64,000 nucleotides of DNA from Candidatus Nanopelagicus hibericus (GTDB taxonomy: Bacteria > Actinomycetota > Actinomycetes > Nanopelagicales > Nanopelagicaceae), in assembly GCF_002288005.1 (NCBI RefSeq), contig NZ_CP016771.1:186001-250000 (forward strand). The letters run 5' to 3'. Of this stretch, positions 5,754 to 11,335 are shown one piece after another. The position numbers were made by a program, and so were the translations under genes. The notes below the pieces were generated by a model. That model saw nothing but the letters and a program-made list of their open reading frames with translations. It had not been told where the DNA came from and searched no databases. The stretch's first letter is position 1. Every line of letters begins with the position of its first letter.

Positions 5754-7363
5754 ATGAGAACTTTAGTCAAAGCTGCCTTGATTTGCGAGATCAATAAATT
5801 TGCCTCATTTTTGCTCCTACACACAACCTCTATGTAGCACTTTAATTTAGGTTCAGTGCCACTAGGTCGAATGATTACCCTAATTTGATCTTTATAACTC
5901 AACCTAATACCTATTGATGGCATGGTTTTCGAACTACTTAAATCTTCACTTTTTTCAAGTGGGTATCCAGAAAGTTCTGCGGGTGGATTATTTTTTACTT
6001 TAGTAAGTAAATTATCAATTTCTTTTAAGTCAGTAAATCGTATTGATATCTGATCAGTTAAATGAAATCCGTACTCCTCACCAATTTTATCAAGGTAATC
6101 TGTTAAGGAGACTCCCTTTTCTTTTAACTCTCCAACTAATTGAGCAATTATCACTGCAGCGCTAATTCCATCCTTGTCATTTACAACTTTTGGATCAACA
6201 CAGTAACCCAGAGCTTCTTCATATCCGAACAAAAGTTCATCGATCTTTGAGATCCATTTGAAGCCTGTCAGAGTTTCTGCAAAAACTAATTTATGTTTGC
6301 TAGCAATTTTTCCGAGCAATGATGAAGAAACCAAAGAGTTTGCAATTGCTGAGTTTGGTAATTTATTTCTCTGGATTAAGTAATTGCCTAAAATAACCCC
6401 CACCTCATCACCTCTGAGCATTCGCCAACCAGTTTCGCCATCATTTATCGCGATTGCACACCGATCAGCATCAGGATCATTTGCAATGACTAGATCTGCA
6501 TCCAGTTTTCTTGCATACTCTAGAGAAAGATCTATAGCGCCTGGCTCCTCTGGATTTGGGAATGGGGTAGTAGGAAAATCTGCATCTGGTTCTGCTTGCT
6601 CTTTAACAATTGTCGGAGTAGCAAACTTTGCCTCATTAAATACCTTTAAGAAGATCTCTGCACCAACACCATGCAAAGGTGTATAGATAATTTTTAAGTT
6701 ATTTGGTTTGCTAATCAGCTTTGCAACTGATTGCACATAATCATTAATTAAAGTTTCATTTACAATTTCATAGTTCTTGGATCTTTTTGGTGAAAGATCT
6801 GCATCTGTTATGTAATTTGAAATTTCTCGGTCAACCGGTGAGATTATTTGTGAACCATTGTATTTAACCCCTTTTAATTGGCCGCCGAGGTAAACCTTGT
6901 AGCCATTATCAGTTGCTGGATTGTGACTAGCAGTGACCATAATGCCCACACCTACTTGCAGTTTATTAACTGCAAATGCAAGTACAGGAGTGGGAAATGC
7001 TCTTGGTAGAACATAGGTTTTAAAACCTGCACCGGCAAATATCTCAGCACTGTCTTGGGCAAAATCATTAGATCCATGACGGGCATCTCGCCCAATTACA
7101 ATCGAAGATAGATTGTTGGCTTTCATAAAACTAACAATTCCGGCTGCAGTTCTACTTACTACTGCTCGATTCATACAAGAGGGGCCGATCCCAATCCTTC
7201 CGCGCAAGCCAGCAGTTCCAAATTGTAGGAATCCGTTAAATGAGCGGGCTATTTCAACTTCATTATTTTCTGCTAGCCATTTACTTAGTTGATTTGCTGT
7301 TTTTTTATCTGGGTCATGATCGATCCACTCTTGAACTTCAATGCGCAACTTATCTGAGATCAC
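5750..7363 (-). CDS. phosphopentomutase-like phosphohexomutase (PGM2/PmmB type)
   Basis: A 537-aa alpha-D-phosphohexomutase superfamily protein with the phosphoserine loop TASHNPATDNGYKVY near residue 143, the metal loop NDPDADRC near 295 and the phosphate-binding loop RPSGTEPKLK near 498. TASHNP followed by NGYKVY marks the PGM2 branch, which includes phosphopentomutases; M. tuberculosis pmmB sits beside deoD in the same way. It therefore most likely isomerises (deoxy)ribose-1-phosphate to the 5-phosphate, linking PunA and DeoA to DeoC. GTG start overlaps the punA stop (GTGA). Glucose or mannose phosphomutase activity is the alternative. Confidence 0.85.
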   Translation of the reverse strand: MISDKLRIEVQEWIDHDPDKKTANQLSKWLAENNEVEIARSFNGFLQFGTAGLRGRIGIGPSCMNRAVVSRTAAGIVSFMKANNLSSIVIGRDARHGSNDFAQDSAEIFAGAGFKTYVLPRAFPTPVLAFAVNKLQVGVGIMVTASHNPATDNGYKVYLGGQLKGVKYNGSQIISPVDREISNYITDADLSPKRSKNYEIVNETLINDYVQSVAKLISKPNNLKIIYTPLHGVGAEIFLKVFNEAKFATPTIVKEQAEPDADFPTTPFPNPEEPGAIDLSLEYARKLDADLVIANDPDADRCAIAINDGETGWRMLRGDEVGVILGNYLIQRNKLPNSAIANSLVSSSLLGKIASKHKLVFAETLTGFKWISKIDELLFGYEEALGYCVDPKVVNDKDGISAAVIIAQLVGELKEKGVSLTDYLDKIGEEYGFHLTDQISIRFTDLKEIDNLLTKVKNNPPAELSGYPLEKSEDLSSSKTMPSIGIRLSYKDQIRVIIRPSGTEPKLKCYIEVVCRSKNEANLLISQIKAALTKVLI

Positions 7364-8169
7364 AACTTAGGCAGGACCTTTGCCAAAAGATTTCCCATGC
7401 GATCTGCAGCAGCTTTTCCAGCAGCAATTACCTCAGCATGATTGAGTTTCTCACCAGTCACACCAGCTGCAGCATTTGTCACTAATGAGATGGCAAGTAT
7501 TTGCGCACCCAGTGCATGAGCTGCAATTGCTTCTGGAACAGTTGACATACCAACTAGATCTGCGCCCATTGTGCGCATCATGCGAATCTCTGCAGGTGTT
7601 TCATAGGATGGGCCACGCCAATGTACATAAACGCCTTCAGCTAGTGAAGGATCCTCAGCCTTAACTATTTCCCGTAATTTCTTGCTATAAAGATCTGTCA
7701 GATCAACAAAGTCTGCACCAATCAAAGGTGATGCTGCGGTTAGTGAAATATGATCCTTTATTAAAACTGGCTGGCCCACTTTGTAATCTAAGTTAATCCC
7801 ACCACAGGCATTTGTTAGGACAATGGTTCGACATCCTGCCTTTACTGCAGTTCTTACTGCATGCGCTACTGGCTCCATTCCTAAACCTTCGTAGAAGTGA
7901 GTTCTACCTAAGAAAACTAGAGCATTAATTTTATTTTCTAATTTATAGGAACGAACTTTGCCACCATGTCCTGCAACAGTAGGAGCTGGAAAGCCGGGTA
8001 ACTCCGTTACCGCGAATTCATGTGTTGGTTTTCCAAGTGCATCGGCAGCTGAAATCCACCCTGAACCCATAACAAGTGCAACATCATGTTTGTCTTTCCC
8101 TGTTATTTTGGCGATCGCTTTGGCGGCTTTTTGCGCTGTGCCGATAGGATCTTTATAAAGCTTGCCCAT
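7360..8169 (-). CDS. punA: purine nucleoside phosphorylase
   Basis: Trimeric-type purine nucleoside phosphorylase (269 aa), splitting (deoxy)inosine and (deoxy)guanosine into base and (deoxy)ribose-1-phosphate. Motifs seen are VMGSGWISAA near 34 (phosphate site), GRTHFYEGL near 88, NACGGIN near 119 and GMSTVPEA with the base-site region near 207. It heads the punA-phosphomutase-deoC-aldehyde dehydrogenase operon, with its own predicted leaderless promoter at 8170-8181, so it need not depend on maf 22 bases upstream. Together with deoA and add this makes a complete route from deoxynucleosides to central carbon. Confidence 0.94.
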   Translation of the reverse strand: MGKLYKDPIGTAQKAAKAIAKITGKDKHDVALVMGSGWISAADALGKPTHEFAVTELPGFPAPTVAGHGGKVRSYKLENKINALVFLGRTHFYEGLGMEPVAHAVRTAVKAGCRTIVLTNACGGINLDYKVGQPVLIKDHISLTAASPLIGADFVDLTDLYSKKLREIVKAEDPSLAEGVYVHWRGPSYETPAEIRMMRTMGADLVGMSTVPEAIAAHALGAQILAISLVTNAAAGVTGEKLNHAEVIAAGKAAADRMGNLLAKVLPKL

Positions 8170-8191: not shown

Positions 8192-8791
8192 TTACTTATG
8201 TTTTAACTCAGGCCAGCTATAACCCAGGGAGATAATCATTTTCCTTAGTAGCGGCAGTGATAAACCAATAATTCCACTTGGATCACCCTCAATTTTTGTG
8301 ATGAATGCTGAACTTAGTCCATCGAGCGTGAAGCCACCTGCAACTTGTAATGGTTCACCAGAATTAACATAATCTACAATTTCCTCATCACTCATCTGCG
8401 CAAACGTCACTTTGGATGTTGATTTCTCACTTAGCTCAACTCCTTGTTTTAAATCGATTAGGCAATGGCCAGTATGAAGATATCCAGATTGACCACTTAA
8501 CTGTTTGCATCTTTGAATTGCATTCTCTTTAGTTTCTGGTTTACCAAGTGATTTACCCTCAAACTCAAAGGTAGAGTCGCAACCGATAATTAATGAGTTT
8601 GCCGGCGCTATATCTTTCACCGTATGTGCTTTAAGGATTGCTAGCGCAATAACTAATTCAGCAGGGGTCAGTGAAGCAAATTCAGCAGCCTCTTCATTAA
8701 CTCCACTAACAATTACCTTGGGTGTAATTCCAACACTTTCTAGCAGCCTGAGTCTTGATGGTGAGGCGGAGGCAAGAATTAGTTCAATCAT
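8192..8791 (-). CDS. maf: Maf-family nucleotide pyrophosphatase
   Basis: Maf protein (199 aa) hydrolyses non-canonical or methylated NTPs to monophosphates (house-cleaning). The N-terminal LASASPSRLRLL motif holds the conserved substrate-binding SxSxxR, GCDSTFE near 69 holds the active-site Asp, and SLGKP follows at 77. Length is normal. It is divergent from the PurK-like gene with only 20 bases between start codons and lies 22 bases upstream of punA on the same strand. Whether it is the UTP/dTTP or CTP/m7GTP subtype cannot be told by eye. Confidence 0.92.
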   Translation of the reverse strand: MIELILASASPSRLRLLESVGITPKVIVSGVNEEAAEFASLTPAELVIALAILKAHTVKDIAPANSLIIGCDSTFEFEGKSLGKPETKENAIQRCKQLSGQSGYLHTGHCLIDLKQGVELSEKSTSKVTFAQMSDEEIVDYVNSGEPLQVAGGFTLDGLSSAFITKIEGDPSGIIGLSLPLLRKMIISLGYSWPELKHK

Positions 8792-8799
8792 TATGCGGG

Positions 8800-8811
8800 T
8801 AACCTTATTAC
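8800..8811 (+). promoter_or_regulatory. predicted leaderless promoter of the PurK-like gene
   Basis: TAACCT (8800-8805), six bases, then the ATG at 8812. The whole promoter sits within the 20 bases separating this gene from maf. Confidence 0.55.
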
Positions 8812-9633
8812 ATGAAGTTACCCCTTGTTGGAGTAGTAGCTGACGAATCGAGCCAATTCAACTATCTGAATGAGGGGAGAAAACTTGGAATTAATCTTAA
8901 ATTTGAAAGCCAGGCTTTAGCAGTTGAGGATTTAATCAGATTTGCAGAAGATTGTGACTTTTTACTTATAGATCCGAAGTTAATTTCTACTGCCTCAGTA
9001 AAAACCGCTGAACGGGCAGGAGTGCGGATCTATCCCTCCGCAAAAACTCTTGAGCAACTAGACCAGATAAATACTGTTCAAATTTCTGGTGAGCACTTAT
9101 CAATTCTAGTTACTAGATCTGCCCATGCTCAGGTTGCTAGTTGGCCAATAACTCTTATCACCAGTAATTTAACAATCACCCCATTGCCAGGAATAAGTGA
9201 TGAGTTATCGCAAGAAATTCAACTTTCGGTATTAAAGCTTGCTGGTGAGGTGGGGTTGATTGGCGGTTTTGAATTATTAGTTGATGCGACGGATTACAAG
9301 CAATTAATAAGTATCAATTGGATTACCCCTTATGCAAAATTCTGGAGCCAGATCGGTTGCGTTACCAATTTTTATGAGCAAAATTTGCGGGCAGCTTTGG
9401 ACTTACCCCTTGGTAGCACAGATTTATTGGATAAATATGTGATTACTGGAAATCTTAAGACTGATCCCGCAAGTGATGATTACCGGCCATACCTACATTT
9501 AATGGCTCGAAATCCAAAGCTAAAGTTTGATCAATCAATTAAGCAAGTGGCTATCACCAGTGATGATTTGGAAAGTGCGCTGACTGAAATCATTCATGCC
9601 CAGCAGTACTACAGTGGTGAGATAGAGGAGTAG
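8812..9633 (+). CDS. degenerate PurK-like protein lacking the ATP-binding subdomain
   Basis: A 273-aa protein recognisable as a shortened N5-carboxyaminoimidazole ribonucleotide synthetase. The start (MKLPLVGVVADESS) matches the PurK pre-ATP-grasp fold. From about residue 96 (LSILVTRSAHAQVASWP) it follows the second half of PurK, including the TNFYEQNLRAALDLPLG segment near 185 and a C-terminal YRPYLHLMARNP. The central stretch of roughly 100 residues that binds ATP is missing, and the metal-binding NExxxRPHNSGH motif has become NWITPYAKFWSQ. It should not be a functional synthetase. No purE follows, although purK-purE is the usual pair. The frame is open and has its own promoter, so a new role is possible. 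Confidence 0.72.
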   Translation: MKLPLVGVVADESSQFNYLNEGRKLGINLKFESQALAVEDLIRFAEDCDFLLIDPKLISTASVKTAERAGVRIYPSAKTLEQLDQINTVQISGEHLSILVTRSAHAQVASWPITLITSNLTITPLPGISDELSQEIQLSVLKLAGEVGLIGGFELLVDATDYKQLISINWITPYAKFWSQIGCVTNFYEQNLRAALDLPLGSTDLLDKYVITGNLKTDPASDDYRPYLHLMARNPKLKFDQSIKQVAITSDDLESALTEIIHAQQYYSGEIEE

Positions 9634-10026
9634 TCAGACTCGCTTTTTATACTCAATCGCAGGGCAACGATTCATTACTGCAATTAATCCGGAAGCGCTT
9701 GCTCGAGAAACTGCTTGCTCGTCAATTACATCAAGTTGTAGCCAAACTCCCTTAGATTTGATGGCAATTGCTTCGTCAACTACTGCGCCTGCAAGCTCTG
9801 AGTTTACAAAAATATCTACCACATCTATTGATACTGGAATATCGGCAAGTTTTGCATAACCTTTTTGCCCATGAACACTCTCAGCTTTTGGGTGTACTGG
9901 AATGACTGTATGACCACGATCCATTAGAACTTTTGCAACACCATATGCTGCTCGTTCAGAGTTATTACTCAAACCAACTATCGCCCAAGTTTTTAAGGCT
10001 AGCAATTGATCAATCTGATCACTCAT
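9634..10026 (-). CDS. CoA-binding domain protein (YccU type)
   Basis: A 130-aa single-domain protein of the CoA_binding_2 family. It has a Rossmann-like start AIVGLSNNSERAAYGVAKVL near residue 15, then VIPVHPKA near 40 and the late VMNRCPAIEYKK motif with the conserved Cys near 121. Family members bind CoA, and their cellular job is not established. It overlaps the end of the UDP-glucose dehydrogenase gene by eight bases and lies downstream of it in the same operon. It is convergent with the PurK-like gene with no spacer. Confidence 0.85.
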   Translation of the reverse strand: MSDQIDQLLALKTWAIVGLSNNSERAAYGVAKVLMDRGHTVIPVHPKAESVHGQKGYAKLADIPVSIDVVDIFVNSELAGAVVDEAIAIKSKGVWLQLDVIDEQAVSRASASGLIAVMNRCPAIEYKKRV

Positions 10027-11335
10027 GATTTGTGCGACCTAGCGCTCTAAATTTCCATCCCGCAGCACGCCATGCTTCGCGATCCAATGCATTTCTACCA
10101 TCGATGATTATTGGAGTTTTCACTAGTGATTTAATCTGTACTGGATTTAGCTCTCGATAGATCTTCCACTCAGTAAGGTGTAGAACTAGCTCTGCATCCT
10201 TTAAAGTCTCATTTATCTCCTGTGCATAATTTAATCCAGGAAAGCGCTTTTGTGCATTAGCAATTGCTTTTGGATCATGAACTGTCACGAGCGCACCGGC
10301 TGCTTGTATTTGAGCTGATATATCCAACGCTGGTGAGTCGCGCACATCATCACTATCTGGTTTAAAAGCTGCGCCTAGCACTGCAATCTTCTTTCCAGAT
10401 AGATCATTTGATAAATCTTTACGAACTAATTCAATAATTCGCTGCCTTGCACGTAAATTAATGGCGTCAATCTCCTTGAGAAACTCAACCGCCTGTTTTG
10501 CCCCCAACTCCTCAGCACGTGCCATGAAGGCGCGAATATCTTTTGGCAGGCAACCGCCACCAAAACCAATTCCTGCCTGTAAAAAACGACTACCAATTCT
10601 TGGGTCATATCCAATAGCTTTTGCTAAAACTGTTATGTCGCCACCAGATGCCTCACAGACCTCTGCCATGGCATTAATAAATGAAATCTTTGTAGCCAAA
10701 AATGAGTTGGCGGCAACTTTTACTAACTCTGCAGTTGGTAAATCTGCCCTTACCCACGGGGTATTTTCTTTCAAGTTAGCCGCATAGACCTCTTTTAAAA
10801 TTCGCTCTGCCTCATCACTCATCACACCAACTACTAATCGGTTTGGTTTCAAAGTATCTTCAACTGCAAATCCTTCCCGTAAAAATTCAGGATTCCATGC
10901 CAGATCAGCTTTGGGATTTAATGCAATTAATCTATCTCGAAGTTTGCTGGCGGTACCAACTGGAACGGTTGACTTACCAACCACGAGGCCGCCCGGCTTA
11001 ACAATTTTGGCAATACCCTCTAGCGCTGAATTCACATAGCTTAAATCTGCTGCATTACCACCCTTTACTTGTGGGGTTCCAACACAGATAAAGTGGATAT
11101 CTGCGGTAGCCAAATCGTTAATGTTTTTAGTAAAGGTCAGTCGACCAGATTTTATTTGCTCTGCCAGCAATTCTTCCAAATCTGGTTCATAAAATGGAAC
11201 CTTTGCTTTACTTAGTAGATCAATCTTGCTGGCATCGGTGTCATATCCAATTACCTCAAACCCCAAGCTAGCCATACATGCGGCGTGCGTGGCTCCTAAG
11301 TAGCCGGTGCCAATTACCGAAAGTTTTAACGCCAT
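10019..11335 (-). CDS. ugd: UDP-glucose 6-dehydrogenase
   Basis: This 438-aa enzyme oxidises UDP-glucose to UDP-glucuronate with two NAD+. It shows the N-terminal NAD-binding GTGYLGATHAA at 9-19, CVGTPQ near 87, the central AANSFLATKISFINAMAEV helix near 207, the catalytic Cys in GFGGGCLPKD near 257, and the C-terminal UDP-binding domain (GAAFKPDSDDVRDSPAL near 322). It is a full-length single-copy type enzyme. Lying beside an LCP ligase and an ExoA-like glycosyltransferase, it probably supplies uronic acid (or a derived sugar) for a cell-surface polysaccharide. Confidence 0.93.
   Translation of the reverse strand: MALKLSVIGTGYLGATHAACMASLGFEVIGYDTDASKIDLLSKAKVPFYEPDLEELLAEQIKSGRLTFTKNINDLATADIHFICVGTPQVKGGNAADLSYVNSALEGIAKIVKPGGLVVGKSTVPVGTASKLRDRLIALNPKADLAWNPEFLREGFAVEDTLKPNRLVVGVMSDEAERILKEVYAANLKENTPWVRADLPTAELVKVAANSFLATKISFINAMAEVCEASGGDITVLAKAIGYDPRIGSRFLQAGIGFGGGCLPKDIRAFMARAEELGAKQAVEFLKEIDAINLRARQRIIELVRKDLSNDLSGKKIAVLGAAFKPDSDDVRDSPALDISAQIQAAGALVTVHDPKAIANAQKRFPGLNYAQEINETLKDAELVLHLTEWKIYRELNPVQIKSLVKTPIIIDGRNALDREAWRAAGWKFRALGRTNHE

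Follow-up and report, generated by a model that had tools for sequence, protein, structure and literature searches.

A PurK-derived pseudoenzyme without ATP-grasp domain B in Candidatus Nanopelagicus hibericus and truncated PurKs in related genera

The closest described system to a 273-residue open reading frame of Candidatus Nanopelagicus hibericus, here termed mini-PurK, is PurK (N5-CAIR synthase; models TIGR01161 and NF004680). The residues of E. coli PurK that contact ATP and AIR have been named (PMC3261824), those for AIR being Gln11, Glu49, Lys307, Arg313 and Lys314. Mini-PurK resembles PurK in its homologous domains A and C, in occupying the purK locus of relatives and in its predicted fold, but it is devoid of domain B, its ATP, metal and AIR residues are lost or replaced, and its genome lacks both PurE and the pathway. 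Full-length PurKs of the Nanopelagicaceae, such as that of Ca. Planktophila versatilis (L209), share with it a similar locus and the RSxHxQ..W, EQxLRAxLDLPLG and RPYLHLMAR motifs; unlike mini-PurK, they possess a complete ATP-grasp core and, in the loci read, an adjoining purE.

Domains A and C of mini-PurK also superpose on those of biotin carboxylase and PurT, ATP-grasp proteins of the biotin carboxylase type (Z about 20-24), in which domain B is present and catalytic and to which sequence identity is 11-17%. Biotin carboxylases form a homodimer away from domain B. A conserved dimer that is ordered even where domain B is not has been described (PMC5407890). Organisms without PurK that have class I-like or class II PurE (methanogens, Archaeoglobus; PMC3261824) offer another parallel, since PurK catalysis is dispensable in them, as it apparently is in genus g3 of the family described here; no purK-derived gene has been reported from them, whereas here one is retained in truncated form.

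The mini-PurK gene and its locus

The window, 64,000 nucleotides in length (G000:C1:186001-250000), contains mini-PurK between a salvage gene and maf on one side and two further genes on the other, as follows.

7360..8169, minus strand: purine-nucleoside phosphorylase (PNP; salvage), identified from sequence and a neighbour in relatives too
8192..8791, minus strand: maf, divergent neighbour 20 bp from mini-PurK; locus order kept in relatives
8798..8811, no strand assigned: 14-bp element GGTAACCTTATTAC, ending at the mini-PurK start codon; putative promoter
8812..9633, plus strand: mini-PurK, a PurK derivative of 273 aa that lacks ATP-grasp domain B; found intact in 23 loci of the genus
8812..9066, plus strand: remaining N-terminal (A) domain, residues 1-85; GAGQLARM motif of PurK lost (alignments)
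9064..9069, plus strand: domain B junction after residue 85; missing residues include K120 and D127 of E. coli PurK (alignments)
9115..9144, plus strand: RSAHAQVASW, residues 102-111 (alignment)
9310..9345, plus strand: residues 167-178, site of the former metal/phosphate motif NELAMRPHNSGHW, now SINWITP-YAKFW (alignments)
9376..9414, plus strand: EQNLRAALDLPLG, residues 189-201, conserved helix and loop of the C domain (alignments)
9484..9528, plus strand: RPYLHLMARNPKLKF, residues 225-239, kept in full and mini forms (alignments)
9568..9630, plus strand: C-terminal helix and tail; HAxDYxxGxI(D/N)E in most lineages (alignment, predicted model)
9634..10026, minus strand: CoA-binding-domain protein, convergent neighbour
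10019..11335, minus strand: UDP-glucose dehydrogenase-like gene (ugd), which served for a neighbour-gene tree

Residues 95-240 match positions 202-357 of the NCBIfam PurK profiles (E 7e-20) at scores far below the curated cut-offs (71 bits against 327 for NF004680 and 38 against 318 for TIGR01161), the best match to a PurK sequence in the PDB has an E value of 4.6e-7, and a Pfam search with the frame returned no family match. A sequence-only reading of this DNA had described an in-frame loss of roughly 100 residues that bind ATP. The ATP-binding part is indeed missing in frame, but the supposed single gap proves to be the sum of three in-frame deletions relative to full-length relatives of the family. 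The first removes a loop of about 17 residues behind residue 36 (near 8919/8920), the second takes out domain B, about 70 residues, behind residue 85, and the third, behind residue 245, eliminates about 9 residues that include the AIR-binding RPGRK stretch.

Alignment with full-length PurKs confirms that the ATP-grasp core is gone: domain B, with GGYDGRG, K120 and D127, is absent from all 16 aligned mini-PurKs of genus g1, which is Nanopelagicus, and present in 31 of 31 full-length relatives. Nearly all of the ATP- and AIR-contacting residues are lost or replaced. All 16 Nanopelagicus sequences lack a counterpart of K120, D127, R80, R313 and K314, and most have W, L or I at the Gln11 position. 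The metal-binding NE...RPHNSGH motif had been read as changed, which holds, since N237 and E238 are replaced and H244 is absent in g1. The Lys307 position is still Lys and the Glu49 position D or E, the alignment being uncertain at both and Lys307 lying beside a deletion. In the 31 full-length relatives the contact residues are intact wherever aligned (R80 as Lys; Glu49 as Glu or Asp). Judged by these residues, mini-PurK cannot act as PurK.

What remains is partly conserved. R102, S103, H105, Q107 and W111 show no variation across 47 aligned sequences of PurK and mini-PurK, and ten positions fixed in Nanopelagicus differ from full-length PurK; several of the conserved residues may belong to the fold core instead of a functional surface. 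An AlphaFold model (pLDDT 94.2, pTM 0.90) has the PurK fold without domain B, and is a prediction of that fold, not independent proof, the underlying alignment having included full-length PurKs. Its best structural match is PurK 3ax6 (chain C; Z 27.5, 261 of 273 residues, rmsd 2.9), followed by PurT and biotin carboxylase.

Mini-PurK had been credited with a promoter of its own. Scans for sigma-70 promoters and terminators found none at the locus, but upstream there is the 14-bp element, which is almost invariant in 22 Nanopelagicus loci (GGTAACCTTA(T/A)TAC, with one position T or A). The element contains TANNNT on either strand, at distances of six and ten bases from the start codons of the two genes, a spacing that matches expectation for leaderless or nearly leaderless divergent promoters. 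The element is therefore probably such a promoter for mini-PurK and maf, from which mini-PurK would be expressed. A regulon was considered for the element and rejected, because it is single-copy in the genome.

Purine pathway and selection on mini-PurK

De novo purine synthesis is impossible in the window genome, a single contig of 1.22 Mb that is 99.9% complete. Family searches found neither purE, which had been noted only as not adjacent, nor a full-length purK, nor purH anywhere in this genome, and tblastn queries with E. coli PurF, D, N, L, M, C and H found no counterpart. As a positive control, the identical PurF and PurM queries recovered the purF and purM loci of three relatives that make purines, with matches at about 1e-82 or better. 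Because PurM is absent, AIR is not made in this organism. The genes left are purA, guaB, a weak purB-like match and salvage genes, and mini-PurK is the only remnant of the pathway found. A second PurK-like match, at 772406-772927, was not taken as PurK because it aligns over profile positions 98-263 only, like other ATP-grasp proteins. For guaA, the E. coli query gave no full-length match, just partial matches of glutamine-amidotransferase type.

AICAR arises in histidine synthesis and is recycled by purH. Whole or partial purH was observed without a recognisable purM in genomes G204, G222, G192, G252, G221, G008, G023, G035, G017 and G030, where it probably performs this recycling. Since purH is kept in several purM-less genomes, the PurK derivative is not the sole pathway remnant in those.

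Of the genus's 25 genomes, 23 have the gene and the remaining two are incomplete assemblies; the check for a broken or missing gene in sister genomes thus did not refute its retention. Its frame is exactly 273 codons in all 23 loci, and the protein alignment is gapless at identities down to 49%. Over these loci pN/pS is 0.10-0.15 (Fisher p 1e-8 to 1e-40), and dN/dS for the closest species is 0.08-0.14, with neighbour genes at 0.02-0.2. Divergence is fast in the N-terminal parts, and mini-PurK diverges fastest of the compared neighbours, with 50-66% identity to most of the genus. Mini-PurK is a pseudoenzyme under purifying selection, not a gene in decay, and the earlier suggestion of retention for a purpose other than catalysis is upheld by the gapless frame, by this selection and by the presence of the gene in 23 of 25 genomes.

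Truncated PurKs in other genera

A profile search of 296 genomes of the order for PurKs without domain B found mini forms in genera g1, g3, g8, g13, g16 and g17, at the PurK position wherever flanks were readable. Most occur in genomes without purM. In g16, which appears to be the Planktophila group, nine genomes have frames of 297-344 residues that retain differing amounts of domain B; none of the nine has purM, which is present in a g16 genome with full PurK. The forms of g13, g8 and g17 are more divergent, and purM is absent where looked for. Domain C is common to all lineages, the N-terminus in g17 being little more than the first helix: the 219-residue remnant there, found in seven genomes plus one contig-end fragment, consists of helix 1 and domain C in a predicted model (pLDDT 93.8). 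In 16 of 24 g17 genomes, one of them 99% complete, a PurK remnant was undetected (among them G017, G029, G041, G052, G062 and G068), and its role is thus dispensable in the g17 genomes that have lost it. Among about 90 other Actinomycetes genomes beyond the family, no truncated PurK was recognised and a few had no purK. Mapped onto a tree of the neighbouring ugd gene, the mini state requires 10-11 changes, of which well-supported branches force at least 5. Several MAG records with loci of Nanopelagicaceae type (L154, L156, L170, L172, L178 and L208) are titled 'Bifidobacterium breve' or 'Streptomycetaceae' and are probably mislabelled.

Genus g3 is distinct in that its thirteen genomes with mini forms have purM in all but two drafts, and in that the mini gene overlaps an intact purE in most loci read (G286 is an exception, with no purE seen next door). 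The active-site motif HLPGM of PurE (E. coli 75-79) is found in 79 of 79 full-PurK loci with a readable motif, some genomes being counted twice. It is HLPGV, ALPGV, ALPGM or HLPGI in 12 distinct g3 genomes that have mini-PurK or no PurK (loci L103-L106, L243-L245 and L247-L251). One of these, G076 (L106), has purM and a purE with the same kind of motif change, and a PurK derivative was undetected in it. These sequence changes suggest that the PurE of g3 has become independent of PurK. The literature searched provided no listing of marker residues for class II PurE.

Role of mini-PurK and alternative explanations

We propose, with modest confidence, that mini-PurK is a PurK pseudoenzyme acting as a non-catalytic scaffold or partner protein, in a role that full-length PurK probably already had. 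As compact A and C domains stripped of domain B and of the catalytic and substrate-binding residues, it would most likely work without catalysis. A non-catalytic role is indicated because residues and pathway exclude both catalysis and AIR binding; it is probably ancestral because several lineages that lost domain B separately all retained the same part; and a dimeric scaffold is favoured because the homodimer of biotin carboxylases lies away from domain B. By analogy with those enzymes, the retained helix 1 of domain A and the whole of domain C would be the homodimer-forming parts, and we infer a mini-PurK homodimer formed through domains A and C. The non-catalytic role would have been present in the ancestral full-length PurK, and would have become its sole role once the enzyme was superfluous. 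Only tentatively, with the balance slightly against it, do we extend this to a general statement that acI PurK has a second, non-catalytic function in its C-terminal half and that domain B was repeatedly removed after purine synthesis was lost.

The main rival is that mini-PurK has gained a function new to the lineage, as a small-molecule sensor or an enzyme, for instance for a salvage purine nucleoside or nucleotide. The ten positions fixed differently in Nanopelagicus could reflect such a role instead of an ancestral one, and the salvage gene for PNP lies two genes away; but the neighbourhood is uninformative, since loci in which PurK is still an enzyme have much the same order of genes, the known nucleotide- and AIR-contacting residues are gone, and the same part was retained in several separate events. 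We consider this rival unlikely, and we give little credence to a single origin of mini-PurK followed by spread through gene transfer in the family. The minis of g1 and g3 do have two deletions in common, and the Planktophila minis of G204 and G222 fall beside g1 in a C-domain tree; however, that grouping is unsafe, long branches affecting the placement of g1, g13 and g17, and the other Planktophila minis sit at the native locus. Several of these are interspersed among full-length PurKs of their genus, and they differ in their remainder of domain B (7 to 30 of 73 residues).

That the gene is a slowly decaying relic, open by chance, might be argued from its rate of divergence and its loss from many g17 genomes, but for Nanopelagicus this is already contradicted by 23 loci without indel or stop, by pN/pS and by the conserved upstream element, and it is very improbable overall. 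No more probable is that the g3 mini-PurK overlapping purE became a helper or subunit of PurE. Overlapping pairs, most of them in genomes with purM, and PurE motif changes that accompany PurK truncation speak for such a partnership; against it, PurE is missing from the window genome and from each of the nine g1 genomes searched, the PurE of G076 is similarly changed where no PurK derivative was detected, and no association of PurE with PurK is reported in vitro (PMC3261824). Hardly credible is the sequence-only reading's proposal that the protein, whose predicted fold is kept, still binds AIR or regulates purine synthesis: the organism lacks this synthesis, which leaves nothing to be regulated, as well as the PurM that would supply AIR, and Gln11, Arg313 and Lys314 are among the contact residues lost. 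What that reading had observed is confirmed, and its interpretation was half right.

Neither recurrent domain loss in PurK nor a linked change in PurE was found described in the open literature, most subscription journals lying outside the scope of the search. The linked changes in g3 PurE suggest how bacteria may come to do without PurK. In Nanopelagicales, which rank among the most abundant bacteria of fresh water and whose genomes are streamlined, retention of a defunct enzyme from a pathway they have lost would not be expected. If acI PurK does have a second, non-catalytic function in its C-terminal half, purine-auxotrophic members of the genus, along with several relatives, would carry a dedicated PurK pseudoenzyme. 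Repeated and separate loss of the ATP-binding domain alone serves as a natural experiment: it hints that PurK, a textbook enzyme, has a hidden second role, and it shows which part would carry that role.
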